A stretch of DNA of 64,000 bases. It comes from Pseudomonas sp. VD-NE ins. Lineage in GTDB: Bacteria; Pseudomonadota; Gammaproteobacteria; Pseudomonadales; Pseudomonadaceae. The notes under the pieces were generated by a model, which was given only the letters and a program-made list of their open reading frames with translations, searched no databases and was not told where the DNA came from. The DNA is taken from contig NZ_CP134772.1 in the NCBI RefSeq assembly GCF_031882575.1, positions 1,445,001 through 1,509,000 on the forward strand, read 5' to 3'. Made by a program: the position numbers and the translations under genes. Position 1 is the first letter of the stretch. Each line of letters opens with the position of its first letter. Below are positions 5,501 through 61,145 of this stretch, piece after piece.

Positions 5501-5683
5501 CTCCCAGAGGGAGAGGGAGCCGACCGAGGTGACTCAGGCTACCCATCGACCTGAAAAACCGAGTCGATTATGGATTCAAAGCAAATATCTCAAGTCGGCG
5601 TAACTCTTCAATATCCCCCATTCAGTCCCCTCTCCCCTTGGGAGAGGGCTAGGGTGAGGGGCTTTTGATCTTTGCCCCAATTT

Positions 5684-6148
5684 TCAGATCATTGGCCGAG
5701 CCGCCGCAATCGCCACCAGCACCAACCCGACAATCAGATTAAGCCCCACCACCCGGCGAATCCGCCCCAGCACCGCCGCACCCGCCGGCCAGTCCTTCGC
5801 GTCCACCGCCGTACGCAACTCCGGCAGCATCAACCCCTGAATACGGATAAACAGCGCGGTCATCACCACATACAAGCCCATCATCACCTGCACATACTTC
5901 GGCGCGGTCTCAAAGCCGACCTGCTGCAAATGCAACATGCCCACGCCGCTGATCGGCAACAGGATCACCGCAACCCAGACCCAACGGAAAAAACCTTGAA
6001 ACACTTCCACCCACAAGGTCAGTCGGGCAGGACCGTCGAGGGCCTTCACAGCCGCGGGGCGCAGGACCATCCAGGCGAAAAACATGCCGCCGACCCAGAC
6101 CAGGGCGGACAGCACATGCAGGGGATAGACGAGGCTAAAAAGTGTCAT
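5684..6148 (-). CDS. CopD-like integral membrane protein
   Basis: A 154-residue protein with four likely membrane helices (LYPLHVLSALVWVGGMFFAW, WVWVAVILLPISGVGML, YVQVMMGLYVVMTALFI, GLNLIVGLVLVAIAAA). The His in the first helix and the overall layout fit the CopD/HemJ-like superfamily; NCBI-style annotation would be CopD family protein. GGAGTAACCC precedes the ATG at 6148. It is divergent from dinG with about 100 bases between the starts. No copper genes lie next to it, so a copper role is not supported by context. Confidence 0.75.
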   Translation of the reverse strand: MTLFSLVYPLHVLSALVWVGGMFFAWMVLRPAAVKALDGPARLTLWVEVFQGFFRWVWVAVILLPISGVGMLHLQQVGFETAPKYVQVMMGLYVVMTALFIRIQGLMLPELRTAVDAKDWPAGAAVLGRIRRVVGLNLIVGLVLVAIAAARPMI

Positions 6149-6247
6149 TGGGTTACTCCGTTCTGCGCGGGATTAATTAGCGGGGTATGATAGCCGCCAT
6201 CCGAAACCACTGAAAATTTATCCAGCGTTTTTTGCGCCCGACAATCC

Positions 6248-8392
6248 ATGATCAGTACTGAACTCAAAACCACGATCCAGGGCGCCTACTCGCGTTTTCT
6301 AGAGGCCAAGAGCCTCAAGCCGCGTTATGGCCAGCGCCTGATGATCGCTGAAATCGCCAAAGTCCTCGGGGATATCGACACCGACGACGAAGGCCGGCGC
6401 AGTGGCGACCCCGCGATTGTTGCGGTGGAAGCCGGCACCGGTACCGGCAAGACAGTGGCCTACAGCATGGCGGCGATCCCGACCGCGAAAGCTGCCGGCA
6501 AGCGTCTGGTCATCGCCACGGCGACCGTCGCGCTGCAAGAGCAGATCGTCTACAAGGATTTGCCCGACCTGATGCGCAACAGCGGGCTGAATTTCACTTT
6601 CGCCCTGGCCAAGGGCCGGGGCCGCTACATGTGCCTCTCCAAGCTCGACATGCTGCTGCAGGAAGGCCACGCGCAGACCGCCACCGCGCAGCTGTTCGAA
6701 GAAGAAGGCTTCAAGATCGAGGTCGATGAGGCCAGTCAGAAGCTGTTCACCAGCATGATCGAGAAGCTTGCCGGCAATAAATGGGACGGCGACCGCGACA
6801 GCTGGCCGAATGCGCTGGAAGACGCCGATTGGGCGCGCCTGACCACCGATCACAGCCAGTGCACCAACCGCCATTGCCCGAACTTCGGCCAGTGCGCCTT
6901 CTACAAGGCCCGCGAAGGCATGGGCAAGGTCGACGTGATCGTCACCAACCACGACATGGTTCTGGCTGACCTGGCATTGGGCGGCGGTGCAGTGCTGCCG
7001 GATCCACGCGACACCATTTATGTGTTCGACGAAGGTCACCACCTGCCGGACAAGGCGATCGGCCACTTCGCCCACTACACGCGCTTGCGCTCCACCGCCG
7101 ACTGGCTGGAAACCACGGCGAAAAATCTGACCAAACTGCTGGCCCAGCATCCGCTGCCGGGCGACCTCGGTAAATTGATCGAACAAGTGCCGGAGCTGGC
7201 GCGAGAGATCAAGGCCCAGCAGCAGTTCATGTTCAGCGCCTGCGAGCAGGTCGCCGATTTCAAACCCGGCGAAGACGTTGAGGGCCGTGAACGCCCGCGT
7301 CATCGTTTCGTTGCCGGGGTGATTCCCGAACACATGCGCGAAATGGGCATCGAGCTGAAGAAAGGCTTTTCACGCCTCAACGATCTGTTCACGCGCCTGA
7401 CCGACCTGCTCAAGGAAGGCATGGACGGCGAGGTCAACATCGGCATCGCCAGCAATCAGGCCGAAGAGTGGTATCCGCTGTTCGGCAGCCTGTTGTCCCG
7501 CGCTTCGGGCAACTGGGAGCTGTGGACGGCGTTCACCGCCGAAGACCCGGAAGACAGTCCGCCGATGGCGCGCTGGCTGACCCTGGCCGAAAGCGGCTCG
7601 CTGTTCGACATCGAGGTTAACGCCAGCCCGATTCTGGCGGCGGAAACCTTGCGCCGCAGCTTGTGGAACGTGGCTTACGGCTGCCTGGTGACCTCGGCAA
7701 CCCTGACGGCGCTGGGCACCTTCGACCGCTTCCGCATGCGCGCCGGCCTGCCGAAAAAAGCCGTCACCGCGGTGGTGCCGAGCCCGTTCCATCACGCCGA
7801 TGCCGGCGTGCTGCGGGTTCCGGATCTGAAAGCCGACCCGCGCGATGCCGCTGCTCATACGGCAGCGATCATCCGTGAGTTGCCGGATCTGGTCGAAGGC
7901 TCGCGTGGCACCCTGGTGCTGTTCTCTTCGCGCAAACAGATGCAGGACGTGTTCGACGGCCTCGACCGCGACTGGCGCAAGCAAGTGTTCATTCAGGGCA
8001 ATCTGTCGAAGCAGGAAACCCTGAACAAGCACAAGGCGCGGGTCGATGGCGGTGATTCAAGTGTGCTGTTCGGTCTGGCCAGTTTCGCCGAAGGCGTCGA
8101 CTTGCCGGGTGCCTACTGCGAGCACGTGGTGATTGCCAAGATTCCGTTCTCGGTCCCGGACGATCCGGTCGAAGCGGCGTTGTCGGAGTGGATCGAGGCC
8201 CGTGGCGGCAATCCGTTCATGGAAATCTCCGTGCCCGATGCCTCACTGAAGCTGGTGCAAGCCTGCGGGCGTCTGCTGCGCACCGAAGAAGACCGCGGCA
8301 CCATCACCTTGCTCGATCGGCGCCTGGTCACCCAGCGCTACGGCAAGGCGATCCTCAATGCGTTGCCGCCATTCCGTCGTGAAATATCCTGA
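6248..8392 (+). CDS. dinG: ATP-dependent DNA helicase DinG
   Basis: A 714-residue XPD-like superfamily 2 helicase, the normal length for DinG. Walker A GTGTGKT is at residues 63-69, and the DEAH-type motif II reads DEGH at 261-264. Cys129, Cys205, Cys210 and Cys216 are placed to bind the iron-sulfur cluster. The C-terminal helicase part shows LVLFSSRKQM, GLASFAEGVDLPG and QACGRLLRTEEDRG. The enzyme unwinds 5' to 3', including D-loops and R-loops. The ATG at 6248 lacks a strong ribosome site. No LexA box was seen in the short upstream region. Confidence 0.93.
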   Translation: MISTELKTTIQGAYSRFLEAKSLKPRYGQRLMIAEIAKVLGDIDTDDEGRRSGDPAIVAVEAGTGTGKTVAYSMAAIPTAKAAGKRLVIATATVALQEQIVYKDLPDLMRNSGLNFTFALAKGRGRYMCLSKLDMLLQEGHAQTATAQLFEEEGFKIEVDEASQKLFTSMIEKLAGNKWDGDRDSWPNALEDADWARLTTDHSQCTNRHCPNFGQCAFYKAREGMGKVDVIVTNHDMVLADLALGGGAVLPDPRDTIYVFDEGHHLPDKAIGHFAHYTRLRSTADWLETTAKNLTKLLAQHPLPGDLGKLIEQVPELAREIKAQQQFMFSACEQVADFKPGEDVEGRERPRHRFVAGVIPEHMREMGIELKKGFSRLNDLFTRLTDLLKEGMDGEVNIGIASNQAEEWYPLFGSLLSRASGNWELWTAFTAEDPEDSPPMARWLTLAESGSLFDIEVNASPILAAETLRRSLWNVAYGCLVTSATLTALGTFDRFRMRAGLPKKAVTAVVPSPFHHADAGVLRVPDLKADPRDAAAHTAAIIRELPDLVEGSRGTLVLFSSRKQMQDVFDGLDRDWRKQVFIQGNLSKQETLNKHKARVDGGDSSVLFGLASFAEGVDLPGAYCEHVVIAKIPFSVPDDPVEAALSEWIEARGGNPFMEISVPDASLKLVQACGRLLRTEEDRGTITLLDRRLVTQRYGKAILNALPPFRREIS

Positions 8393-8426
8393 GACAACGG
8401 TGGGCAGTTTTGCCCGCCGTGTTGTC
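8393..8426 (+). terminator. Strong hairpin after dinG
   Basis: Arms GACAACGGTGGGCA and TGCCCGCCGTGTTGTC pair over about 14 bp with a two-base bulge and a four-base loop, directly after the stop codon. There is no T run, so termination is not certain. Confidence 0.4.
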
Positions 8427-8487
8427 TATCTCTCTGCCATCGCTTTTCCATTGGCCATTGTTGGTCGTTAGGGAGAACTCCGTTCTT

Positions 8488-10968
8488 ATGATCCGCCGTT
8501 CGTTGCCCGCCGTATTTGCCTTGATCTTCGCCACGCCGCTGTTCGCGGCGCCTGCGGGTCAGCAAACCCTGTTCAACTTTGTCCGTCCTGCCGACGTGGT
8601 GAAAATCGCCACCGAAAACGCTGATCTGCCGCAAGCCAACGCCGAGCAAACGCCTGAAGGCGAAGTGCTGCGCCGGGTGACGTTCAACCCGGTGGCGCGC
8701 CCGACCTTGCGCCTGACGCCGCAGACCGGCGCGTGGGACTGGTCGCAGTCCGGGATGATGACCCTGCGGTTGCAGAGCGCAATGGACTGGGCGGTGACGG
8801 TCTATGTGCAAATCCAGAGCAACGACGGCCGCACCCTGGTCAGCCGCGTCGACCTGCCGGCAGGCCCTGCGCAAACCCTGTTGGTGCCGCTGGTCGCATC
8901 GTCACCGTTGAGTCTTGGCATGAAAGCCGGGCCACCCATGCCAATGACGGTCGATGGTCAGCGGATCCTGCTGGCCAGCAGCAGCGGTGAGATCGATCGC
9001 AGCCAAGTGGTTTCGGTGAGCTTGTCTTTGGATCAGCCGAAAGTCGCCCAGAGTTTGCTGCTGGAGCGTTTCGGTGTGCAGGACGGCGAATCGGTCACCC
9101 AGGCCGTTTACGGCAATCTGGTCGATGTGTACGGGCAGTCGACCCGCAGCAAGTGGCCGGAAAAGATCAGCAACGACGAGCAACTGAAATCCGCCGCCGC
9201 CAAGGAACAGCAACAACTGAAAACCTGGTTGGCCGAGCGTGAAAAGTCCTCGCTGGACAAGTTCGGTGGCTGGAACAAAGGCCCGGCGTTCAAGGCCAGC
9301 GGGTTCTTCCGCACTGAAAAGCGTGATGGCCGTTGGTATCTGGTCACGCCTGAAGGTCACCCGTTTTACTCGTTGGGCGTGAACACCGTCAGCCCGCAGG
9401 TCAATCAGACCTACGTGGCCGGTCGTGAGTACATGTTCGAATCCTTGCCCAAAGCGGATGAACCCTTGGCCAGTCACTTTGGCGAAGGCGACAACCGTGG
9501 CGGCAATGGTGTTGATCAGGGCCGGGGTTATGGCAACGGGCGCTGGTACGACTTCTACGGCGCCAACCTGCAGCGCGTGTACGGTGAACCTTGCAAAGCC
9601 GACAGTGAGAGCAAGTCCGGGGTAGCGGAAGCGGCCAAGTCTGCAGCCGCTGAAACGGCCGCCGTCCAAGCCGCCGAGCCTGCCCCTGTACCTGCCGAGC
9701 CGAAGTCCGGCGTCGCTGAAGCGGCCAAGACTGAAACCGTACAAGCGACGACAGAAAAGGCTGCCGAACCGTGCAAGGCCACCATCGATGAGCAGCAGTG
9801 GGCCAGCCACACGCTTGATCGCCTGCAAGCCTGGGGCTTCAACACGGTCGGCAACTGGAGTGCCGATTCGCTGACCGATGCCGAGCGCGTGCCGTACACC
9901 TTGCCGCTGTCGATTGTCGGCGACTACACCAGCATCAGCACCGGCAGCGACTGGTGGGGCGGCATGCCCGATCCATTTGATCCGCGCTTCGCCATGGCCA
10001 CCGAGCGCGCTGTGGCTATCGCCGCCCGTGATCACCGCGATGATCCATGGCTGATCGGCTACTACGCTGACAACGAACTGGCATGGGCCGGTCCCGGCGA
10101 TGATCCGAAATCCCGCTACGCGCTGGCTTACGGCACGTTGAAAATGACCACCGACGTGCCGGCCAAACGTGCGTTCCTCAAGCAATTGCGCGACAAGTAC
10201 CGTAATCAGGCGGGGCTGTCGAAGGCGTGGGGCATCGATCTGCCGGCGTGGGAGTTGATGGAAGACCCGGGTTTCGTGCCACCGCTGCCGAATCCCGAGC
10301 ATCCGGAAATCGAGGCGGACTTCAAATATTTCCAGAAAGTCTTCGCCGACACTTACTTCAAAACCATCTCCGACTCGCTGAAATGGCACGCGCCGAACCA
10401 GTTGCTGCTCGGCGGCCGCTTCGCCATCAGCACCCCGGAAGCCGTGGCCTCTTGCGCGCAGTATTGCGATGTACTGAGCTTCAACATGTACACGCTGAAA
10501 CCGCAGGACGGCTATGACTTTGCCGCGCTGGGCGCTTTGGACAAACCGGTACTGATCACCGAATTCAACTTCGGCTCAGCGGATCGTGGCCCGTTCTGGG
10601 GCGGCGTCACGCCAGTGGTCAGGGAAGAAGATCGCGGCCCTGCATACGCCAATTTCCTCAAGCAGGCCTTGAGCGAGCCGTCGATTGTCGGCGTGCATTG
10701 GTTCCAGTATCTCGATCAACCGGTGACCGGGCGTCTGCTCGATGGCGAGAATGGTCACTTTGGTCTGGTGGGCGTGACGGATCTGCCGTATCAGGGCTTT
10801 GTCGAAACCGTGCGCAAGAGCAATTTGCAGGCGATTGATCAGCTTGGCAAAGAGGCAGAGAAAGCGGCCGCCGCAGCGGGGCATGAGGCTGAGGGCGGCC
10901 GCAAAGGCGAGGCCGGCAAAGGGTCGGGGGCAGGGCATGCCGGTGGTCATTCCGGCAATGGTCACTGA
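8488..10968 (+). CDS. GH50/agarase-like glycoside hydrolase, exported
   Basis: An 826-residue protein with signal peptide MIRRSLPAVFALIFATPLFA. After a beta-sandwich region comes the catalytic (beta/alpha)8 part, opened by FFRTEKRDGRWYLVTPEGHP. Likely acid/base Glu is in YYADNELAW (Glu530) and nucleophile Glu in VLITEFNFGS (Glu692), as in GH50-type beta-agarases. Residues about 366-429 are a low-complexity Ala/Glu/Pro insert flanked by EPCKA on both sides. The tail is Gly/His-rich. Start ATG 8488 has GGGAG upstream. The true substrate in a soil Pseudomonas is unknown and may not be agarose. Confidence 0.65.
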   Translation: MIRRSLPAVFALIFATPLFAAPAGQQTLFNFVRPADVVKIATENADLPQANAEQTPEGEVLRRVTFNPVARPTLRLTPQTGAWDWSQSGMMTLRLQSAMDWAVTVYVQIQSNDGRTLVSRVDLPAGPAQTLLVPLVASSPLSLGMKAGPPMPMTVDGQRILLASSSGEIDRSQVVSVSLSLDQPKVAQSLLLERFGVQDGESVTQAVYGNLVDVYGQSTRSKWPEKISNDEQLKSAAAKEQQQLKTWLAEREKSSLDKFGGWNKGPAFKASGFFRTEKRDGRWYLVTPEGHPFYSLGVNTVSPQVNQTYVAGREYMFESLPKADEPLASHFGEGDNRGGNGVDQGRGYGNGRWYDFYGANLQRVYGEPCKADSESKSGVAEAAKSAAAETAAVQAAEPAPVPAEPKSGVAEAAKTETVQATTEKAAEPCKATIDEQQWASHTLDRLQAWGFNTVGNWSADSLTDAERVPYTLPLSIVGDYTSISTGSDWWGGMPDPFDPRFAMATERAVAIAARDHRDDPWLIGYYADNELAWAGPGDDPKSRYALAYGTLKMTTDVPAKRAFLKQLRDKYRNQAGLSKAWGIDLPAWELMEDPGFVPPLPNPEHPEIEADFKYFQKVFADTYFKTISDSLKWHAPNQLLLGGRFAISTPEAVASCAQYCDVLSFNMYTLKPQDGYDFAALGALDKPVLITEFNFGSADRGPFWGGVTPVVREEDRGPAYANFLKQALSEPSIVGVHWFQYLDQPVTGRLLDGENGHFGLVGVTDLPYQGFVETVRKSNLQAIDQLGKEAEKAAAAAGHEAEGGRKGEAGKGSGAGHAGGHSGNGH

Positions 10969-10981
10969 CCTTTGATGCTCT

Positions 10982-11058
10982 AAAAAGATCGCAGCCTGCG
11001 GCAGCTCCTGCATGGGAACGCGTTTCTCTGTAGGAGCTGCCGCAGGCTGCGATCTTTT
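10982..11058. repeat. Inverted REP pair, type A
   Basis: AAAAGATCGCAGCCTGCGGC and its inverse flank a short spacer; same arrangement as the pair at 214-291. It lies in the gap between the agarase-like gene and the serine hydrolase. Confidence 0.9.
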
Positions 11059-11159
11059 GACTTGGCTTTTAACCGTCCGGCCCGCAGCTGTTCCCAAATC
11101 CCTCTAGGGCTGGAACAATGCGGGCCACTTTGTAGAGCGTTTTCGCGGGGGAGTTGCGG

Positions 11160-12305
11160 GTGCAGATTCAGGGACATTACGAGCTTCAATTCGAAGCGGT
11201 GCGCGAAGCTTTCGCCGCACTGTTCGACGATCCCCAGGAACGCGGCGCAGCCCTGTGCATCAAGGTCGGCGGAGAAACCGTCCTCGACCTCTGGTCCGGC
11301 ACTGCTGATAAGGATGGTGCTGAAGCCTGGCACAGCGACACCATCGCCAACCTGTTCTCCTGCACCAAAACCTTCACCGCCGTCACCGCCCTGCAACTGG
11401 TCGCCGAAGGCAAGCTGCAACTGGATGTTCCGGTCGCCCGCTACTGGCCGGAGTTCGCCGCTGCCGGCAAAGAATCCGTGACCCTGCGCCAATTGCTCTG
11501 CCACCAGGCCGGTCTGCCGGCACTGCGCGAGCTGTTGGCACCGGAAGCCCTCTACGACTGGCAAACCATGGTCGACGCCCTCGCCGCCGAAGCTCCGTGG
11601 TGGACGCCGGGCACTGGCCACGGTTATGCCGCAATCACTTACGGCTGGCTGATCGGCGAGTTACTGCGCCGCGCCGACGCTCGTGGGCCGGGCGAATCCA
11701 TCGTCGCGCGTGTGGCCAAGCCGTTGGGCCTGGATTTCCACGTCGGTCTGGCTGACGAAGAATTCCACCGCGTGGCGCACATTGCCCGCGGCAAGGGCAA
11801 TGCTGGCGATGCTGCCGCGCAACGTCTGCTGCAGGTGACCATGCGCGAGCCGACCGCGATGACCACCCGTGCTTTCACCAATCCACCCTCGGTGCTCACC
11901 AGCACCAACAAACCGGAATGGCGGCGCATGCAGCAACCGGCGGCCAATGGCCACGGCAATGCGCGCAGCCTGGCCGGTTTTTATGCCGGTCTGCTCGATG
12001 GCAGTCTGCTCGAAAGCGACATGCTCGAAGAGCTGACCCGTGAACACAGCCTCGGCGAAGACAAGACTTTGTTGACCCAGACCCGTTTCGGTCTGGGCTG
12101 CATGCTCGATCAACCGGACGTGCCCAACGCCACTTACGGTCTCGGCCCTCGTGCATTCGGTCATCCGGGTGCGGGCGGTTCCATCGGTTTTGCTGACCCC
12201 GAGCATGATGTCGCGTTTGGTTTTGTGACAAATACCCTTGGGCCGTACGTCTTGATGGATCCGCGCGCGCAGAAGCTTGCGCGGGTGCTTGCCACTTGTC
12301 TGTAA
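11160..12305 (+). CDS. Serine hydrolase, class C beta-lactamase fold (EstB-like)
   Basis: A 381-residue protein of the beta-lactamase/DD-peptidase esterase family. The SxxK motif is in LFSCTKTFTAV, a Tyr motif candidate is GYAAITYGWL, and HPGAGGS near the C-terminus takes the place of the KTG box (as in EstB esterases). No signal peptide is seen, so it is probably a cytosolic esterase rather than a true beta-lactamase. GTG at 11160 is preferred over TTG at 11154 because GGGGGAG lies 6 bases upstream of the GTG. Confidence 0.75.
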   Translation: MQIQGHYELQFEAVREAFAALFDDPQERGAALCIKVGGETVLDLWSGTADKDGAEAWHSDTIANLFSCTKTFTAVTALQLVAEGKLQLDVPVARYWPEFAAAGKESVTLRQLLCHQAGLPALRELLAPEALYDWQTMVDALAAEAPWWTPGTGHGYAAITYGWLIGELLRRADARGPGESIVARVAKPLGLDFHVGLADEEFHRVAHIARGKGNAGDAAAQRLLQVTMREPTAMTTRAFTNPPSVLTSTNKPEWRRMQQPAANGHGNARSLAGFYAGLLDGSLLESDMLEELTREHSLGEDKTLLTQTRFGLGCMLDQPDVPNATYGLGPRAFGHPGAGGSIGFADPEHDVAFGFVTNTLGPYVLMDPRAQKLARVLATCL

Positions 12306-32739: not shown

Positions 32740-33060
32740 ATGAATCAAGAACCTAGCACCCTCTATGCCAAGCTGCTTGGTGAAACCGCATCTATTACCT
32801 GGAAAGAGTTGGAGCCGTTCTTCGCCAAGGGTGCCCTATTGTGGGTCGACCCTGCGCTGGATTTGATCGCCGCCGCTGAGGCCGTGGCGTCGGATGATGG
32901 CGAGAAAGTGGCTGCCTGGCTGGCCGAAGACAAAGTCGCCAAGCTGTCTGAGACGCGGGCGCTGGATCTTTTCGAACGCGATCCCGAGATGTGGGCAGTG
33001 GTGGTTCGGCCGTGGATTCTGGTCCAGGAAAGGGCAGTTGCTGCCAACGTCGCACCTTGA
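32740..33060 (+). CDS. DUF2288 protein
   Basis: A 106-residue acidic protein (TLYAKLLGETASITWKELEPFFAKG, WVDPALDLIAAAEAVASDD, VVVRPWILVQE), matching DUF2288, a small family of unknown function in gamma-proteobacteria and cyanobacteria. The ATG at 32740 begins the family N-terminus; upstream in-frame codons are not supported. A terminator lies about 120 bases downstream. Confidence 0.75.
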   Translation: MNQEPSTLYAKLLGETASITWKELEPFFAKGALLWVDPALDLIAAAEAVASDDGEKVAAWLAEDKVAKLSETRALDLFERDPEMWAVVVRPWILVQERAVAANVAP

Positions 33061-33182: not shown

Positions 33183-33208
33183 AAGCAGCCTAACGGCTGC
33201 TTAATTGT
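33183..33208 (+). terminator. Terminator after DUF2288 gene
   Basis: AAGCAGCC and GGCTGCTT arms with TAAC loop, followed by AATTGTTTC. Confidence 0.7.
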
Positions 33209-33255
33209 TTCTGGATATTGGAAAGGCTGAAATCTTCAGTGAATTTCAGGGCCTC

Positions 33256-33320
33256 TTCGCGAGCAGGCTCGCTCCCACAGGGGAATGCATTCCAATGTGG
33301 GAGCGAGCCTGCTCGCGAAG
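33256..33320. repeat. Inverted REP pair, type C
   Basis: TTCGCGAGCAGGCTCGCTCC and its inverse about a short spacer. It lies immediately downstream of the tubulin-like gene. Confidence 0.9.
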
Positions 33321-33339
33321 GGGGCGACTCGGTACTGGA

Positions 33340-35541
33340 TCAGACCGAGAACGACTTCCCGGTATGGTTATTCAGCGAAATAACCTTGGTCTTGCCAATC
33401 CGGTGACGATAAATCTCGCGCAGGTACTTGATCGACTTCTTCACACAATCGCGCGACAAACGAATGTCGTTGATCGAGACAAACTTCTCTTTGTCGTTGA
33501 TCAGCTCGCGGTACTTCTTCTCGTACATCGGTTTGATCGCGTACCAGTTGGTGTCGAGGATCTTCGCCGGGTTTTCGAACTCGTTGAGCAGGTCGTCGAT
33601 GCGGTCTTCGTCGAACTCCTCGTTGATGATGAAATCGAGGATCGAGTTGTCCAGGGTCTCGTCGAAACGGTACGGGTTCTTCGCGAAGCAGCGCTTGATG
33701 AACGCCACGATCAAAGTCAGGAAGTCGTCCGACAGGCACGGGCTCTTGGCGATCAGGGTGGTCAGCGACAGGTTGGCCGAGGCGCCGATCACCAGCGCGT
33801 AACGCTTGAGCGTGGTATTCGGGAACAGGCTGTTGAGGTGGGTCTTCAACCGGTTCAGGTCCATGTACGACAGCTTGTAGTCTTTCGGCAGCGAAACGAT
33901 CGAGACCACCGACGAGCAGTTCTTGAAGAAGTGCAGGTCGTGCAGGGCGGCGGCGTCGTAGCCGGAATTCTTGTACTGCTCAAGCGACGCGCGATAACGC
34001 TTGGACTCGATCGGCAAGAGGCTGATGCCTTCAATCGCCTGGGTCACTTTGTTGAAGTGCGGCAGGTCGATCGAGCGGAAGAACAGGTCGTCGATGTTCA
34101 GGCGCTGCGGCTCTTTGTCGAACACCTTGAATTTGTCGCTGCTCGGCGGCGGGGTTTCCGGCACCACCGATTCTGCGTAGGCAATCGCCACCGGTCCGGC
34201 CAGACTCATGAACAGGTCGTTGGCGTCGAGGCGAATGGTTTCGCCGATGTCGATGCCAGCGCGGCGGAAGTAGTTCTGGTCGTAGTCAGTGGTGACTGCC
34301 TGCGCCGTCAGAATGTTGAAGATCTGCTGCGAGATGTACTGGTTGGCGTGTTTTTCCATCGCATTGACATCAATGTTCTGGATGTTGCCGTCATCGCTCT
34401 CTTCGGCGTAACGCATGATGTCGTTGGAGATCAGCATCATCGCGTTCCATGGGCGAATACGGCCCATGACGCTGGCTTCGCTGCTGTCTTCATTGGCGAA
34501 GTTGTAGGAGAAATCCCACTCCTCCGAAAGATATTTGCACAACAGGCGACCGGCGTTGATGTGCAGCGCCTCGGACATTTCGCTGCGGTGATCGGAAATG
34601 TTCGGCAGCACGCAGATACCGCTGGTGAAGATCGGCTCGAACACGAACGAATGACCGCTCTTGCCGTCATGCTCGTCCATCGGCTTGGTGTCGAACGTCT
34701 TGTTCATGTACGAGTGCTGCTGGGCCAGACCGAACTCCGAAGCCATGCCGGAACCGGTACCGCCGCCGGCACTGAAGATCGAGAAATACAGGCGCGACTG
34801 GTTAGCCTTGATGCCACAGCTGTCGATCAGGTACGAGTGGATCATTTTCCAGTCAGGGCTGGAGAAGCGCTGGGTGTCCTTGTTGAGGATGATCTTCGCC
34901 AGGTACTGGCCGAGGATCGGCGCGTTACCGGCGCCACCGGCGTGGACTTCGGACAAGTCCATGATCTTCATTTTGCTGTAGTCGCGCAGGAAGCCGCTTT
35001 TCTCGCCTTTGCGCGAGAAACGGATGCGCCCGGCGATGTCTTTGTCGAGGTCGCCGAGCATGACAAGCGGTTCAACCAGGAACACCGGTTTGCTGGCCTT
35101 GTTGTTGCCGATGCGCAGGTTGTTCTTGATCCACTGCGCCGGGCTGTAGCCCTTGTCGGCGGTGCGTCGATCACTGCTCGGACGATCTTCGTTGTTGAAT
35201 TCGTTGAGGTAGAACTTTCGCGCGTTGTACACCAACTCCGCGACATCGAGGGCGATGTTCGAGCCGCAGCGACCGAGGCCGATCAGGCACACCGAGGGGA
35301 ATTCCTGATCGTTGTGCTGTTCGTTGTCGCCTTCCAGGTGCGGCGGGCGCGGGAACACCAGATCACGCAGGCCGTCGAGGTTGTCGAGGATGCGGTCGGT
35401 GTTGGTTTCGGTGAAGTACAGGTATTGCTGAGTCGACAGCGGACGCGACGGGACCAATGGCTTCGACGATGACGGGCTGTTGGCGGCAGGGCTCAAAGTC
35501 AGATCGGCTACCGCAGTGGCGGGATTGTTTTTAGAAGTCAT
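33340..35541 (-). CDS. Tubulin/FtsZ-superfamily GTPase-like protein
   Basis: A 733-residue protein, about twice FtsZ length. A nucleotide-binding opening CLIGLGRCGSNIALDVAEL is at residues 85-103. The tubulin signature GGGTGSG sits at 259-265 in FSIFSAGGGTGSGMASEFG. A candidate T7 catalytic loop, LSYMDLNRLKTHL, lies near 557-569, with the second acidic residue replaced by Asn. Residues 1-60 are Ser/Pro-rich and disordered. It is unlike FtsZ, TubZ or PhuZ in length and fits the FtsZ-like family described only in Proteobacteria, thought to act in membrane or cytoskeletal remodelling. ATG at 35541 chosen; a TTG at 35580 is possible. No partner gene is adjacent. Confidence 0.75.
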   Translation of the reverse strand: MTSKNNPATAVADLTLSPAANSPSSSKPLVPSRPLSTQQYLYFTETNTDRILDNLDGLRDLVFPRPPHLEGDNEQHNDQEFPSVCLIGLGRCGSNIALDVAELVYNARKFYLNEFNNEDRPSSDRRTADKGYSPAQWIKNNLRIGNNKASKPVFLVEPLVMLGDLDKDIAGRIRFSRKGEKSGFLRDYSKMKIMDLSEVHAGGAGNAPILGQYLAKIILNKDTQRFSSPDWKMIHSYLIDSCGIKANQSRLYFSIFSAGGGTGSGMASEFGLAQQHSYMNKTFDTKPMDEHDGKSGHSFVFEPIFTSGICVLPNISDHRSEMSEALHINAGRLLCKYLSEEWDFSYNFANEDSSEASVMGRIRPWNAMMLISNDIMRYAEESDDGNIQNIDVNAMEKHANQYISQQIFNILTAQAVTTDYDQNYFRRAGIDIGETIRLDANDLFMSLAGPVAIAYAESVVPETPPPSSDKFKVFDKEPQRLNIDDLFFRSIDLPHFNKVTQAIEGISLLPIESKRYRASLEQYKNSGYDAAALHDLHFFKNCSSVVSIVSLPKDYKLSYMDLNRLKTHLNSLFPNTTLKRYALVIGASANLSLTTLIAKSPCLSDDFLTLIVAFIKRCFAKNPYRFDETLDNSILDFIINEEFDEDRIDDLLNEFENPAKILDTNWYAIKPMYEKKYRELINDKEKFVSINDIRLSRDCVKKSIKYLREIYRHRIGKTKVISLNNHTGKSFSV

Positions 35542-35737
35542 TGTGCGCCATATACCTGGACTGGTTGGCTCGCTGGCCAATGCCGGCGAACCTCACGGAA
35601 TAAGATCTCGCGTCTTTTATTTGCGCGAATTGAGCCCGAGCATCAGGGTTTTCGCCTGACTGTCGCTGGGGGGAATCCTTTCCTGATCGTTGATGAATCG
35701 GCCATTATTCGGCGATCTTTAATCGAAAAGAGGCAAA

Positions 35738-36634
35738 ATGATGTCAACGCTACCTTCGTTGGGGTTCGCCGGAATCGGTCTGATGGGCCTGCCCATGTGC
35801 CGGCGTCTGTTGGCGGCGGGTTACCCGCTGACCGTGTGGAATCGCAACCCGGCCAAGTGCGCGCCACTGGTCGAGGCCGGTGCCCGCCAGGTGGCGAGTC
35901 CGGCTGAACTGTGCGAACACGCCGACGTGGTGATGCTGTGTCTGGCCGATACGGCGGTGGTGCGCGAGGTGGTTTTTGGCGCGGGCGGTATCGCCGAAGG
36001 TGCGAAAAGCGGTCAGTTGCTGGTGGATTTTTCCAGCCTTGAACCAACGGCCACTCGCGAGATGGCGGCGACGCTTGCGGAGAAAACCGGCATGTCCTGG
36101 CTGGATTCACCGGTGTCCGGCGGCGTGGTCGGCGCCGAGGCGGGCAGCCTGGCGATCATGGTCGGTGGCGAAACGGCAGATCTTCAGCGCGTGCGCCCAG
36201 TGCTGCTCAACCTCGGTCAACGCGTCACGCACATGGGTGGCATCGGCGCGGGGCAAGTGACCAAGGCTTGCAACCAGATGATCGTCGCCTGCAATGCGCT
36301 GGTGATTGCCGAAGTGGTGGCGCTGGCCGAACAGGCCGGGGTCGACGCGAGCCTGATCGCCGAAGCGTTGGCCGGTGGTTTTGCCGATTCGAAACCTCTG
36401 CAGATCCTCGCGCCGCAAATGGCTGAAAGCCGTTTCGAACCGATCAAATGGCACGTGCGCACGCTGCTCAAGGACCTCGACACGGCGGTGAAATTCTCCC
36501 GCGAACAGGGTTCGGCGACGCCGATCAGCGGATTGGCCGCACAATTGATGCGCCTGCATGGGGCGCAAGGCTATTTGGCGCAGGATCCAGCGACACTGGT
36601 GCAAATGTACCGCGCGCCAGAATCAACGGATTGA
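35738..36634 (+). CDS. 3-hydroxyisobutyrate dehydrogenase family oxidoreductase
   Basis: A 298-residue NAD(P)-dependent beta-hydroxyacid dehydrogenase. The nucleotide motif is LGFAGIGLMGLPMCRRLLAAG; the substrate loop is DSPVSGGVVGAEAGSLAIMVGG; the catalytic Lys is in GAGQVTKACNQMIVACN. This family includes 3-hydroxyisobutyrate dehydrogenase, tartronate semialdehyde reductase and GLYR1; the substrate cannot be fixed here. GAGG lies just upstream of two adjacent ATG codons (35738, 35741). Its last 110 bases overlap the 3' end of the convergent GGDEF-EAL gene. Confidence 0.85.
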   Translation: MMSTLPSLGFAGIGLMGLPMCRRLLAAGYPLTVWNRNPAKCAPLVEAGARQVASPAELCEHADVVMLCLADTAVVREVVFGAGGIAEGAKSGQLLVDFSSLEPTATREMAATLAEKTGMSWLDSPVSGGVVGAEAGSLAIMVGGETADLQRVRPVLLNLGQRVTHMGGIGAGQVTKACNQMIVACNALVIAEVVALAEQAGVDASLIAEALAGGFADSKPLQILAPQMAESRFEPIKWHVRTLLKDLDTAVKFSREQGSATPISGLAAQLMRLHGAQGYLAQDPATLVQMYRAPESTD

Positions 36635-38819
36635 CCGCGTGTGAATGTTTGCGCTGATTGATTTCTTCCAGCACCGGACGCAATTCGTCCAGCGGCACCG
36701 GACGACTGAGCAGGTAACCCTGAATAAAGTCGCAGCCCGAACGTTCAAGAAATTCGTATTGCTCCAGGCTTTCCACGCCCTCGGTCACGACCTGCAAATG
36801 CAGGGTGTGCGCCATGACGATGATCGCCTGGACAATCTCCATGTCGGCGGTCGCCGTGGGAATGTCGAGGATGAACGAGCGGTCGATCTTCAAGGTGTTT
36901 AGCGGCAGGCGCTTGAGGTAAGCCAGCGACGAATAGCCGGTGCCGAAGTCGTCGATCGACAGCGACACACCGAGCGCGCGTATCTGCCGCAGCAGCACCA
37001 GGGTGTTGGCGATGTTGCCCATCAACGCGTTCTCGGTGACTTCCAGTTCCAGCCGTTCCGGCGCGACACCGGCAGTGCGCAAGGCACTTTCGATTTCAGT
37101 GGCCAGTTCTTCCCGGGCAAGATTGAGCGGCGAGCAGTTCCAGGCGATTTTCAGTTCTGCGCAGCCATGCCGTGACAGTTCACCCAGATCCTTGCAGGCG
37201 CGGCGCAGCACCCAGTTGTCCAGTTCGGCGATCAGGCCATTGTTTTCGGCGATGCTGATAAATCGATCCGGGGTTAGCAAACCATGCAGTGGATGCTGCC
37301 AGCGGATCAGCGCTTCGAGTTTGGTGACACGGCCGGTTTTCAGTTCGAAGATCGGTTGGTAATAGAGCGTCAGACCGTTTTCTTCGCGCAGGGCATGGCG
37401 CAGTTCTTCTTCCAGTTGCAGCTCGAAGCTGGCGCGGGTCTTGAGGTTGGAACTGAAAAAATGCAGGCCATTACGCCCCGCGCCTTTGGATTGATACAAC
37501 GCCAGATCAGCGTGCTTGAGCAGTTCTTCGCAGGTGCTGCCATCTTCCGGAAACAGACTGATGCCGATGCTGGTGGTCATCACCATGCGGCGCCCGGCCA
37601 GTTCGATCGGCTCTTTCATCTTGAGCATGATGCGCTGGGCCATATTGCGGGCTTCTTCGCGCTCACGAAGACTGATGAGGATGCAGAACTCGTCACCGCC
37701 GAAACGCGCGACCACGTCTTCATGACTGCGCACCGAGCCTTTGATGTGATTGGCGATGACCTTTAGCAACTCGTCACCGGCATCATGGCCGAGGCTGTCG
37801 TTGATCCGCTTGAAGTGGTCGATGTCGAGAAACATCACCGCGAGCATGCCGCCTTCGCTGGTTTTCTGGCTGAGTTTCTCGGCGAAGATCTGGTTGAAAC
37901 CGCGACGGTTGATCAGGTTGGTCAGGGCGTCGTAGTTGGCCACTTGTTGCAGCGACATGCGCGCCTGATCGAGTTGACTGAGCAAGGCGTTGAGCCGGCG
38001 CAGGTCGTGTTCCTTGTTTTGCAATTTCTTGTCGGCCAGCGCCGCACTGATCGCACTGCCAAGGATCAGCAGGATGATCAGCGCTACGGTCAGACCCAGT
38101 TGCAGATGCCCGTTATCGCCGCCGCTCGCTGTCAGGCCTCCCTCGGGAAGAACCAGATCCAGCGCAGCCATGCCGGTGAAATGCATGCTGATGATGCCGG
38201 CGCCGAGAATCAGCGCAGCGCTGTACTTGAGCAACTGATGTGCCACGCCGCTGCCTTCGCTCAGATAGCGGGCGACCCACAGCGCGGCGAAACTGGCGCC
38301 GATGGCGATCGCCACAGACAGCGCGAACAGTCCTGGCTGATAGTAGGCGGTGGCGCTCGACTTCATCGCCGCCATGCCAACGTAATGCATGCCGGCGATG
38401 CCCAGGCCGATGACAAACGCGGTTTTCAAGCAATGCAACGCACTCGGCTGCGTTTCGCTCAGGGTTTGCATGGCCAGCCAAGAGGCGAGTAGGGCGATCA
38501 GCAACGAGAAAAGGGTGATGCCAAGGTCGTACTGAATGTCGATCGGTGTCTGGAAAGCCAGCATGCCGATGAAATGCATGGCCCAGATGCCGCCGGCCAG
38601 GCAGGTCGCGCCGATCCAGCGCCAGACGCGCTGAGAGCCGGGATCTTCAGCGTGGCCAACCCGTTCGGCCATGTCGAGGGTGGCAAAACTCGCCGCGCAG
38701 GCGACCAGGTAGGCCACCAGCACCAGCAAGGGATTATGTGTGCAATCTAAAATGACCTGCCCGCTCTCCGGCAGCTCGGTAACAAACTGCAAACCAAGCC
38801 ACTCCATAGCATGCCCCAT
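36525..38819 (-). CDS. MHYT-GGDEF-EAL c-di-GMP signalling protein
   Basis: A 764-residue membrane protein. Seven helices hold three MHYT motifs: MHFIGM (81-86), MHYVGM (144-149) and MHFTGM (212-217), proposed to sense gas or copper. A GGDEF domain follows with RFGGDEF at 372-378, then EAL at 502-504 with DDFGTGYSSLAYLKRLP. Both motifs look intact, so it may make and break c-di-GMP. The last 36 residues are encoded opposite the convergent dehydrogenase gene. An alternative ATG four codons in (38807) has a better GGGG upstream. Confidence 0.88.
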   Translation of the reverse strand: MGHAMEWLGLQFVTELPESGQVILDCTHNPLLVLVAYLVACAASFATLDMAERVGHAEDPGSQRVWRWIGATCLAGGIWAMHFIGMLAFQTPIDIQYDLGITLFSLLIALLASWLAMQTLSETQPSALHCLKTAFVIGLGIAGMHYVGMAAMKSSATAYYQPGLFALSVAIAIGASFAALWVARYLSEGSGVAHQLLKYSAALILGAGIISMHFTGMAALDLVLPEGGLTASGGDNGHLQLGLTVALIILLILGSAISAALADKKLQNKEHDLRRLNALLSQLDQARMSLQQVANYDALTNLINRRGFNQIFAEKLSQKTSEGGMLAVMFLDIDHFKRINDSLGHDAGDELLKVIANHIKGSVRSHEDVVARFGGDEFCILISLREREEARNMAQRIMLKMKEPIELAGRRMVMTTSIGISLFPEDGSTCEELLKHADLALYQSKGAGRNGLHFFSSNLKTRASFELQLEEELRHALREENGLTLYYQPIFELKTGRVTKLEALIRWQHPLHGLLTPDRFISIAENNGLIAELDNWVLRRACKDLGELSRHGCAELKIAWNCSPLNLAREELATEIESALRTAGVAPERLELEVTENALMGNIANTLVLLRQIRALGVSLSIDDFGTGYSSLAYLKRLPLNTLKIDRSFILDIPTATADMEIVQAIIVMAHTLHLQVVTEGVESLEQYEFLERSGCDFIQGYLLSRPVPLDELRPVLEEINQRKHSHAVNPLILARGTFAPVSLDPAPNSLAPHAGASIVRPIR

Positions 38820-44941: not shown

Positions 44942-44982
44942 TTGATCCCGGTCAATTTGTGCGCCTGTGTGTTTGGTAACTT
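44942..44982 (+). promoter_or_regulatory. ANR box and -10 of the ccoM-like gene
   Basis: TTGATCCCGGTCAA (44942-44955) is a near-perfect ANR/FNR box. TAACTT at 44977-44982 fits a -10 element, which puts the start of transcription near 44990, so the box is centred at about -41.5, the class II activating position. Confidence 0.75.
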
Positions 44983-45020
44983 AGTCCCATCGCAGCAGAG
45001 CAGGGGCCAGGAGGCCAGTC

Positions 45021-45134
45021 ATGTTTTTCGATAACGTGGTGTTTGCCGGGGTCCTGACTGTAGGGCTGATGGTTCTGTTTTTTGCAGGGTTTGGATTTTT
45101 TATCTGGAAGGATGCGAATAAGCGCAAGAAGTGA
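45021..45134 (+). CDS. ccoM: Cytochrome cbb3 oxidase small subunit CcoM
   Basis: A 37-residue single-helix membrane protein: MFFDNVVFAGVLTVGLMVLF, FAGFGFFIWKDANKRKK. Length, the WKDA end and the basic tail agree with CcoM, an extra subunit that stabilises cbb3-type oxidase in pseudomonads and is encoded away from ccoNOQP. AGGAGG is 6 bases before the ATG. An ANR box upstream and a strong terminator downstream make it a stand-alone low-oxygen gene, which supports the call. Confidence 0.75.
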   Translation: MFFDNVVFAGVLTVGLMVLFFAGFGFFIWKDANKRKK

Positions 45135-45167
45135 TTCTTCTGGATTGATGAGCACGCAAGGCATTTT

Positions 45168-45196
45168 GGGGCGACTTCGGTTGCCCCTTTTTTTTT
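45168..45196 (+). terminator. Rho-independent terminator of ccoM
   Basis: GGGGCGAC and GTTGCCCC arms closed by a TTCG tetraloop, followed by nine T residues. Confidence 0.95.
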
Positions 45197-55830: not shown

Positions 55831-55930
55831 TCCCCTGTGGGAGCGAGCCTGCTCGCGAAAGCGGTGGGTCAGCCAACATAAATGTCGTCTGACACTCCCT
55901 CTTCGCGAGCAGGCTCGCTCCCACAGGGGA
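55831..55930. repeat. Inverted REP pair, type C
   Basis: TCCCCTGTGGGAGCGAGCCT ... CGCGAA and its inverse, between pcaG and pcaT; may affect mRNA 3' ends inside the cluster. Confidence 0.9.
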
Positions 55931-61051: not shown

Positions 61052-61145
61052 TGTGGGAGCGAGCCTGCTCGCGAAGGCGGTGTATCAGTCAACATCTCTG
61101 TTGAATGTTAAGCCCTCTTCGCGAGCAGGCTCGCTCCCACAGGGG
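61052..61145. repeat. Inverted REP pair, type C
   Basis: GTGGGAGCGAGCCTGCTCGC ... and its inverse ... CGAGCAGGCTCGCTCCCAC, downstream of the porin gene. Confidence 0.9.

Follow-up and report, generated by a model that had tools for sequence, protein, structure and literature searches.

What would a bacterium that already has an ordinary FtsZ do with a second, much longer protein that carries the tubulin signature? This question is raised by a gene in a 64,000-nucleotide stretch of the Pseudomonas sp. VD-NE ins genome (contig NZ_CP134772.1, positions 1,445,001 to 1,509,000 of the forward strand), here called the window. An original prediction from the DNA letters alone proposed a solitary, double-length protein of the tubulin/FtsZ superfamily, with nucleotide loops GLGRCGSN and GGGTGSG. 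The 733-residue reading frame and both motifs were borne out; the strand, which that prediction had not given, is minus, with the ATG of the 733-codon gene at 35541 and its stop codon at 33342-33340. "Double-length" is apt, as the protein is almost twice as long as the organism's own FtsZ (398 amino acids [aa]), which is encoded elsewhere in the 6.7-Mb, single-contig genome (match G000:C1:5469662-5470141) beside a gene that we take to be ftsA. The evidence below supports placing the protein in the tubulin/FtsZ superfamily, and the protein fits the FtsZl2 family, whose name is used hereafter. The gene and the parts of its product are as follows; pLDDT is the predicted local distance difference test score, and dN/dS is the ratio of nonsynonymous to synonymous substitution rates.

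33340..35541, minus strand: FtsZl2 gene, 733 aa (open reading frame, relatives, dN/dS)
35311..35541, minus strand: variable N-terminal tail, residues 1-77, probably disordered, better conserved at residues 42-59 (block pLDDT 30-49 in model 1)
35257..35280, minus strand: T1 nucleotide loop GLGRCGSN, residues 88-95 (family conservation, Pfam Tubulin)
34747..34767, minus strand: T4 tubulin signature GGGTGSG, residues 259-265 (family conservation, Pfam Tubulin profile 113-129)
34297..34368, minus strand: predicted core helix H7, residues 392-415 (template-free model, block pLDDT about 60-65, fold matches)
34213..34236, minus strand: T7 motif IRLDANDL, residues 436-443, just before predicted helix H8 (family conservation; block pLDDT 50-64)
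33748..34224, minus strand: predicted tubulin/FtsZ-type activation domain, residues 440-598, H8-S7-H9-S8-H10-S9-S10 (model, pLDDT 72-92 for 478-597)
33343..33735, minus strand: predicted helical C-terminal extension, residues 603-733 (models; past residue 640, model 1 only)

The gene is under purifying selection. Changes between relatives fall mostly at third codon positions of the minus frame, and dN/dS was 0.021-0.055 against seven close relatives and 0.077-0.239 against six more distant ones. A 755-aa antisense open reading frame lies opposite the gene (33205-35472, plus strand). Over the gene length that frame has one stop in the window, and among 13 relatives it has at least three stops in seven, one in four, and none in two; it is probably spurious because at least three stops interrupt it in 7 of the 13.

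The three motifs are nearly invariant. Among 281 family proteins (the window's own included; 80 clusters at 90% identity), the T1 pattern was found in 280, the T4 pattern in 280, and RLDAND in all 281, and the recurrence of the T1 and T4 patterns in these sequences appears to be more than chance. T1 (GLGRCGSN) is in register with GVGGGGGN of the organism's own FtsZ. The original prediction held that the second acid of T7 was replaced by Asn, and it asked whether T7 aligns with catalytic residues. RLDANDL occupies residues 437-443, and in register with the own FtsZ (INVDFADV with IRLDANDL) both acids, D439 and D442, are kept and correspond to D209 and D212 of Escherichia coli FtsZ. According to the available text of PMC8142252, the D212A mutant of E. 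coli FtsZ retains 7% of GTPase activity. What has been replaced is the Asn of the FtsZ T7 motif GXXNXD, which is Arg437 here and invariant in 42 representatives, and the Gly and Asn of FtsZ T7 are both absent from FtsZl2. T1 and T4 are separated by 171 residues in the window's protein (P0001), mostly 166 in relatives, and 88 in the own FtsZ; this spacing and that between T4 and T7 (178) exceed those of the own FtsZ by 83 and 76 residues, respectively. The family median from T7 to the end is 297 aa. The C-terminal peptide with which FtsZ binds FtsA and ZipA (D[IVL]P.F[LIV]R) was found in none of the 281 proteins; DIPAFLR is invariant in 11 aligned FtsZs.

A template-free model, built from FtsZl2 sequences alone, predicts that the C-terminal half holds a tubulin-type activation domain and a helical extension, with the elements in the order H7-T7-H8-S7-H9-S8-H10-S9-S10, a likeness to FtsZ that adds to the shared T1, T4, and T7 acid positions. 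The activation domain is modeled with confidence (block pLDDT 72-92 over residues 478-597), H7 and T7 less so (50-65). The extension is predicted to start with a tubulin H11-like helix (605-618), followed by family-specific helices; tubulin and TubZ also have helices after S10. CetZ was the nominal best fold match, but TubZ, BtubA, and FtsZ tie with it within about 1 Z unit, so no special kinship with CetZ is shown. The structure prediction that had been proposed as a check thus supplied an activation domain and core helix H7, whereas the GTPase domain stayed at low pLDDT. A membrane-targeting amphipathic helix in the N-terminal region was considered and dropped, residues 48-65 ranking 74th of 716 windows by hydrophobic moment; the highest 19-residue Kyte-Doolittle mean in the protein is 1.4.

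Profile searches also bear on superfamily membership. The window's protein aligns with Pfam Tubulin at 18.2 bits (cutoff, 33), its best stretch being the 17 residues 253-269 on profile positions 113-129, and with Tubulin_2 (PF13809) at 16.5 bits (cutoff, 27) over residues 240-379. At E values of ≤1, Tubulin matches 42 of 42 representatives (best, 3.1e-5) and Tubulin_2 matches 39 of 42 (best, 0.0012). When 10 members were scanned singly, the best Tubulin stretch lay at T1 (profile 2-44) in P0132, P0235, P0175, and P0166; the remaining six had theirs at T4 (profile 109-151). The T1 stretches of those four fail the match limit on their own. Tubulin_2 aligns collinearly in all 10 over 73-183 residues (E values of 5.5e-4 to 0.031; 14-19.7 bits). 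Restricting the comparison of the family profile with 11 FtsZs to the T4 segments gave an E value of 0.00085 (probability, 24%); the T7 segments taken by themselves paired IRLDAND with INVDFAD without significance (E value of 0.43). Motif order, the partial and weak Pfam alignments, and the template-free model of the C-terminal domain together support membership in the superfamily, as originally proposed.

Several results weigh against this assignment and what is built on it. The profile search suggested with the original prediction gives alignments to Tubulin, Tubulin_2, and FtsZ, but all of them are weak, and every Pfam match with a score shown falls below its curated cutoff. DUF6562, a family without evident relation, matches 13 of the 42 members (best E value, 0.0026) and one further member at 7.6e-4; because these matches are comparable, E values of such size alone decide nothing. 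Whole-profile comparison with the FtsZs gave E values of 0.025 and 0.026 at a probability of about 2%, with T4 placed on T4; local comparison of the H7-C-domain segments with FtsZ gave nothing (E value of 0.75), and forced global alignments to FtsZ failed to set T7 on T7. The model does not confirm the nucleotide-binding fold because residues 198-367 (model 121-290), which include T4, have a block pLDDT of 25-44. All Foldseek E values were at least 0.001, with template modeling (TM) scores of at most 0.32 for matches to the tubulin superfamily, and one of the five models stood clearly above the others (56 versus 43-48). Model 1, built from 42 sequences, failed, and neither tubulin nor FtsZ appeared in the 50 Foldseek matches listed for it. 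Finally, replacement of the T7 Asn by Arg437 could weaken hydrolysis.

The original prediction had pointed to a proteobacterial FtsZ-like family without a known role. That family is FtsZl2, one of two described by Makarova and Koonin in 2010 (PMC2875224), the type being PFL_1302 of P. fluorescens Pf-5. As far as the available text of PMC2875224 goes, FtsZl2 is proteobacterial and of unknown function, with the T1, T4, T6, and T7 loops, helix H7, inserts that lengthen the stretch from T1 to T4, a C-terminal region of about 300 aa with mixed alpha/beta structure for which no relatives were detected, no coiled coil (in contrast to the other family, FtsZl1), and no linked genes. The protein studied here comes from the same genus and has T1, T4, and T7, T1-T4 inserts, a C-terminal region of about 300 aa with predicted helices and strands, and no conserved neighbors; Marinomonas is among the figure-legend species in that text and among the relatives found here. 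The protein therefore fits FtsZl2 on each point tested, being set beside PFL_1302 by description, and orthology to PFL_1302 is likely because each positive Pseudomonas genome has one match. The C-terminal region for which PMC2875224 found no similarity is modeled here as the activation domain plus helical extension.

Protein searches with three queries returned 666, 647, and 643 relatives, of which 120 were listed for each. Pseudomonas, Marinomonas, Celerinatantimonas, Agarivorans, Rheinheimera, Arsukibacterium, Cellvibrio, Corallincola, and Neiella are represented among the matches listed. A minority of these matches carry organism names, presumably all of Pseudomonadota (one doubtful name was checked). 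Where the sources give the proteins a name, it is mostly "hypothetical" or "uncharacterized," with a few entered as "Tubulin-like protein" or "FtsZ/tubulin family protein." The family as listed is compact, since no pair of the 281 proteins falls below 54% BLAST identity. Genome samples, which comprised genomes other than the window's own and in part overlapped, gave one FtsZl2 match in each of 41 of 58 congeners, none in the other 17, and matches in 2 of 36 further genomes from the order in the same sample. Wider samples were positive in 11 of 193 genomes across the order, 1 of 368 across the class, and 8 of 397 across the phylum; when 398 Pseudomonadota genomes were searched by profile, the 9 positives were those of the single-protein search. 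One of the eight phylum-wide matches, from another gammaproteobacterial family (L138 of G821, 8910-11608), is a decayed copy in several pieces with internal stops, which points to loss. Tubulin_2 was found in 0 of 120 Pseudomonadota genomes searched.

Comparison with FtsZ on gap-free columns suggests horizontal exchange of FtsZl2. Within Pseudomonas, FtsZ is 92.2% and FtsZl2 87.7% identical, whereas between Pseudomonas and G129 (70.4% versus 80.0%), G929 (73.1% versus 78.9%), or the Marinomonas-type group f26 (66.7% versus 71.1%), FtsZl2 is the more similar; the f14 pair is reversed (FtsZ 71.1%, FtsZl2 60.8%). Pseudomonas is a supported clade in the FtsZ tree, and in the FtsZl2 tree G129 and G929 share an unresolved fork with it. 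We dropped horizontal transfer as a proven fact: the identities cross over, but the approximately unbiased (AU) test did not reject a Pseudomonas clade for FtsZl2 (p 0.164).

We favor, as the probable reading, that FtsZl2 is a GTP-dependent head-to-tail homopolymer with T7-triggered hydrolysis and an accessory role outside division. GTP binding, hydrolysis, polymerization, and the cellular role are all steps that we infer. The N-terminal domain would bind GTP via T1 (G88-N95) and T4 (G259-G265); in head-to-tail stacking, T7 of one subunit (Arg437, Asp439, Asp442) would meet the GTP of the next and trigger its hydrolysis, yielding dynamic homopolymeric filaments that the helical C-terminal and disordered N-terminal tails might tune or link. 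Such a protein would be an accessory cytoskeletal element rather than a division ring and would act without a co-encoded partner. There is indirect support for a role apart from division, as originally suggested: the genome has an ordinary FtsZ as well, FtsZl2 is missing from many genomes, and it lacks the C-terminal peptide of FtsZ. Near-double length, long inserts, the T7 arginine, the missing peptide, and absence from 17 of 58 congeners all distinguish FtsZl2 from FtsZ. Our best guess for the role, a tentative one, is CetZ-like action in shape or envelope organization. CetZ, unlike FtsZl2, is archaeal; it is reported to act in Haloferax cell shape and motility, and it serves here only as an experimental guide. 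Arg437, at the Asn position of T7, could act as a finger. A more speculative and rather unlikely extension is that FtsZl2 is a self-sufficient, horizontally exchanged filament that inserts this finger into the neighbor's GTP, with a helical module at its own C terminus doing the work that tethers and adaptors do for FtsZ and TubZ, as an optional second tubulin cytoskeleton in many gammaproteobacteria.

The alternative that survives best, although we consider it unlikely, is a tubulin-fold GTP binder that forms no filaments, the inserts, T7 arginine, and C-terminal extension having made it a GTP-dependent regulator or scaffold that acts as a monomer or dimer. The enlarged spacings, the loss of the FtsZ T7 Gly and Asn, and the length of the extension would suit it. 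However, RLDAND is kept throughout the family, and this constraint fits stacking because FtsZ T7 works on the GTP of the neighboring subunit (available text of PMC8456036). A cargo-moving segregation filament of the TubZ/PhuZ kind, captured from a plasmid or phage, is much less probable. Its appeal lies in the patchy spread and in TubZ being among the best fold matches; the modeled fold of the C-terminal half and helices past S10 are shared with TubZ/PhuZ. Yet tblastn of 72,556 plasmid and 50,697 phage records found no FtsZl2 relative, no conserved candidate adaptor or partner gene was found at 20 loci, and each positive congener has a single match. We consider it very improbable that FtsZl2 is part of an FtsZl1-type membrane-remodeling system. 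Tubulin_2, the FtsZl1 family, gave the longest Pfam alignment, weak and collinear as described above; all 10 scores lie below the cutoff, none of 10 nearby genes (4 in the window, 6 at other loci) matches von Willebrand A, OmpA, or P-loop GTPase families. The available text of PMC2875224 keeps the two families apart, could not identify T6-H7 in FtsZl1 (H7-T7 is predicted in FtsZl2), and ties membrane remodeling, which the original prediction had entertained for this protein and which finds no support here, to FtsZl1. Equally improbable is a chance GGGTGSG in an unrelated protein: the best Tubulin stretch in the window's protein is indeed 17 residues around that motif, and DUF6562 does comparably in some members, but T1 and T4 hit the profile in the correct order across different members, and a model that used no sequences other than those of FtsZl2 gives the C-terminal part, which lacks GGGTGSG, the form of a tubulin activation domain.

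The surroundings of the gene are marked by three features.

32740..33060, plus strand: flanking gene, DUF2288, marks the empty site in relatives (family scan)
35738..36634, plus strand: flanking gene, 3-hydroxyisobutyrate-dehydrogenase-like, divergent from the FtsZl2 gene, marks the empty site (family scan)
33252..33323, no strand: doublet of repetitive extragenic palindromic (REP) type, two 36-nucleotide arms in inverted orientation, 16 bp beyond the FtsZl2 stop (repeat search)

The gene had been placed alone between REP repeats, with neither phage nor plasmid genes close by. A scan of the four genes that flank it agrees with the solitary setting and the lack of such genes, but the repeat, which we take to be a REP, is a single doublet on the downstream side; the interval 35500-35760 yielded no inverted repeat. 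Six REP cores were found across the window. The next one after this doublet lies 20 kb off, at 55837, and further doublets (55837-55924 and 61053-61140) have the same 20-nucleotide core, opposite arm order, and wider spacing. A search for a sigma-70-like promoter upstream of the gene found no match, which says little. The check on conserved neighbors proposed earlier was run on the 20 loci, the window's included: conservation is confined to within a genus, and no gene is conserved beside FtsZl2 between genera, except for distant similarities among GGDEF/EAL and ABC-transporter genes. Eight of the 17 FtsZl2-negative congeners carry the dehydrogenase-like gene as a close copy (71-84%). In four of these (G037, G044, G056, and G003) it lies 172-326 bp from DUF2288 with no FtsZl2 match between; in the other four, DUF2288 was not found within the 10 kb read. 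The difference in FtsZl2 presence between G037 and the window is probably recent because their LivK proteins are 97.6% identical. The dehydrogenase-like neighbor is not fixed, since G010, a positive control, has FtsZl2 and only a 38% match to that gene.

An MHYT-GGDEF-EAL protein is encoded at 36525-38819 (minus strand), its 3' end overlapping the convergent dehydrogenase-like gene by 110 bp. In four of six Marinomonas-group loci (L104 at 5568-8630, L129, L136, and L137), a GGDEF-EAL gene lies next to FtsZl2 and in the same orientation; the gene order is swapped in L136, and the L104 protein, the only one scanned, is a fusion with an ammonium transporter and with PAS. We dropped a link to cyclic di-GMP enzymes: GGDEF/EAL genes are near the locus in Pseudomonas too, but the proteins differ (MHYT versus ammonium-transporter fusion) and the domains are common. 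PhrS small RNA (44981-45195, plus strand; 183.9 bits, model 1-212 of 212) is the sole Rfam family in the window at the gathering threshold.

In the openly licensed PMC literature searched, no functional study of FtsZl2 was found since the 2010 description; the only other paper found with the string "FtsZl2" is PMC7327170, which by its title is a study of FtsZ degradation. What is new relative to the available text of PMC2875224 is that the formerly unclassified C-terminal region is now recognizable as a predicted activation domain, and the fold result names residues to probe (D439, D442, and R437). If FtsZl2 does form filaments, many Pseudomonas species would have a second tubulin-type cytoskeleton, one that could be tested in easily handled hosts.
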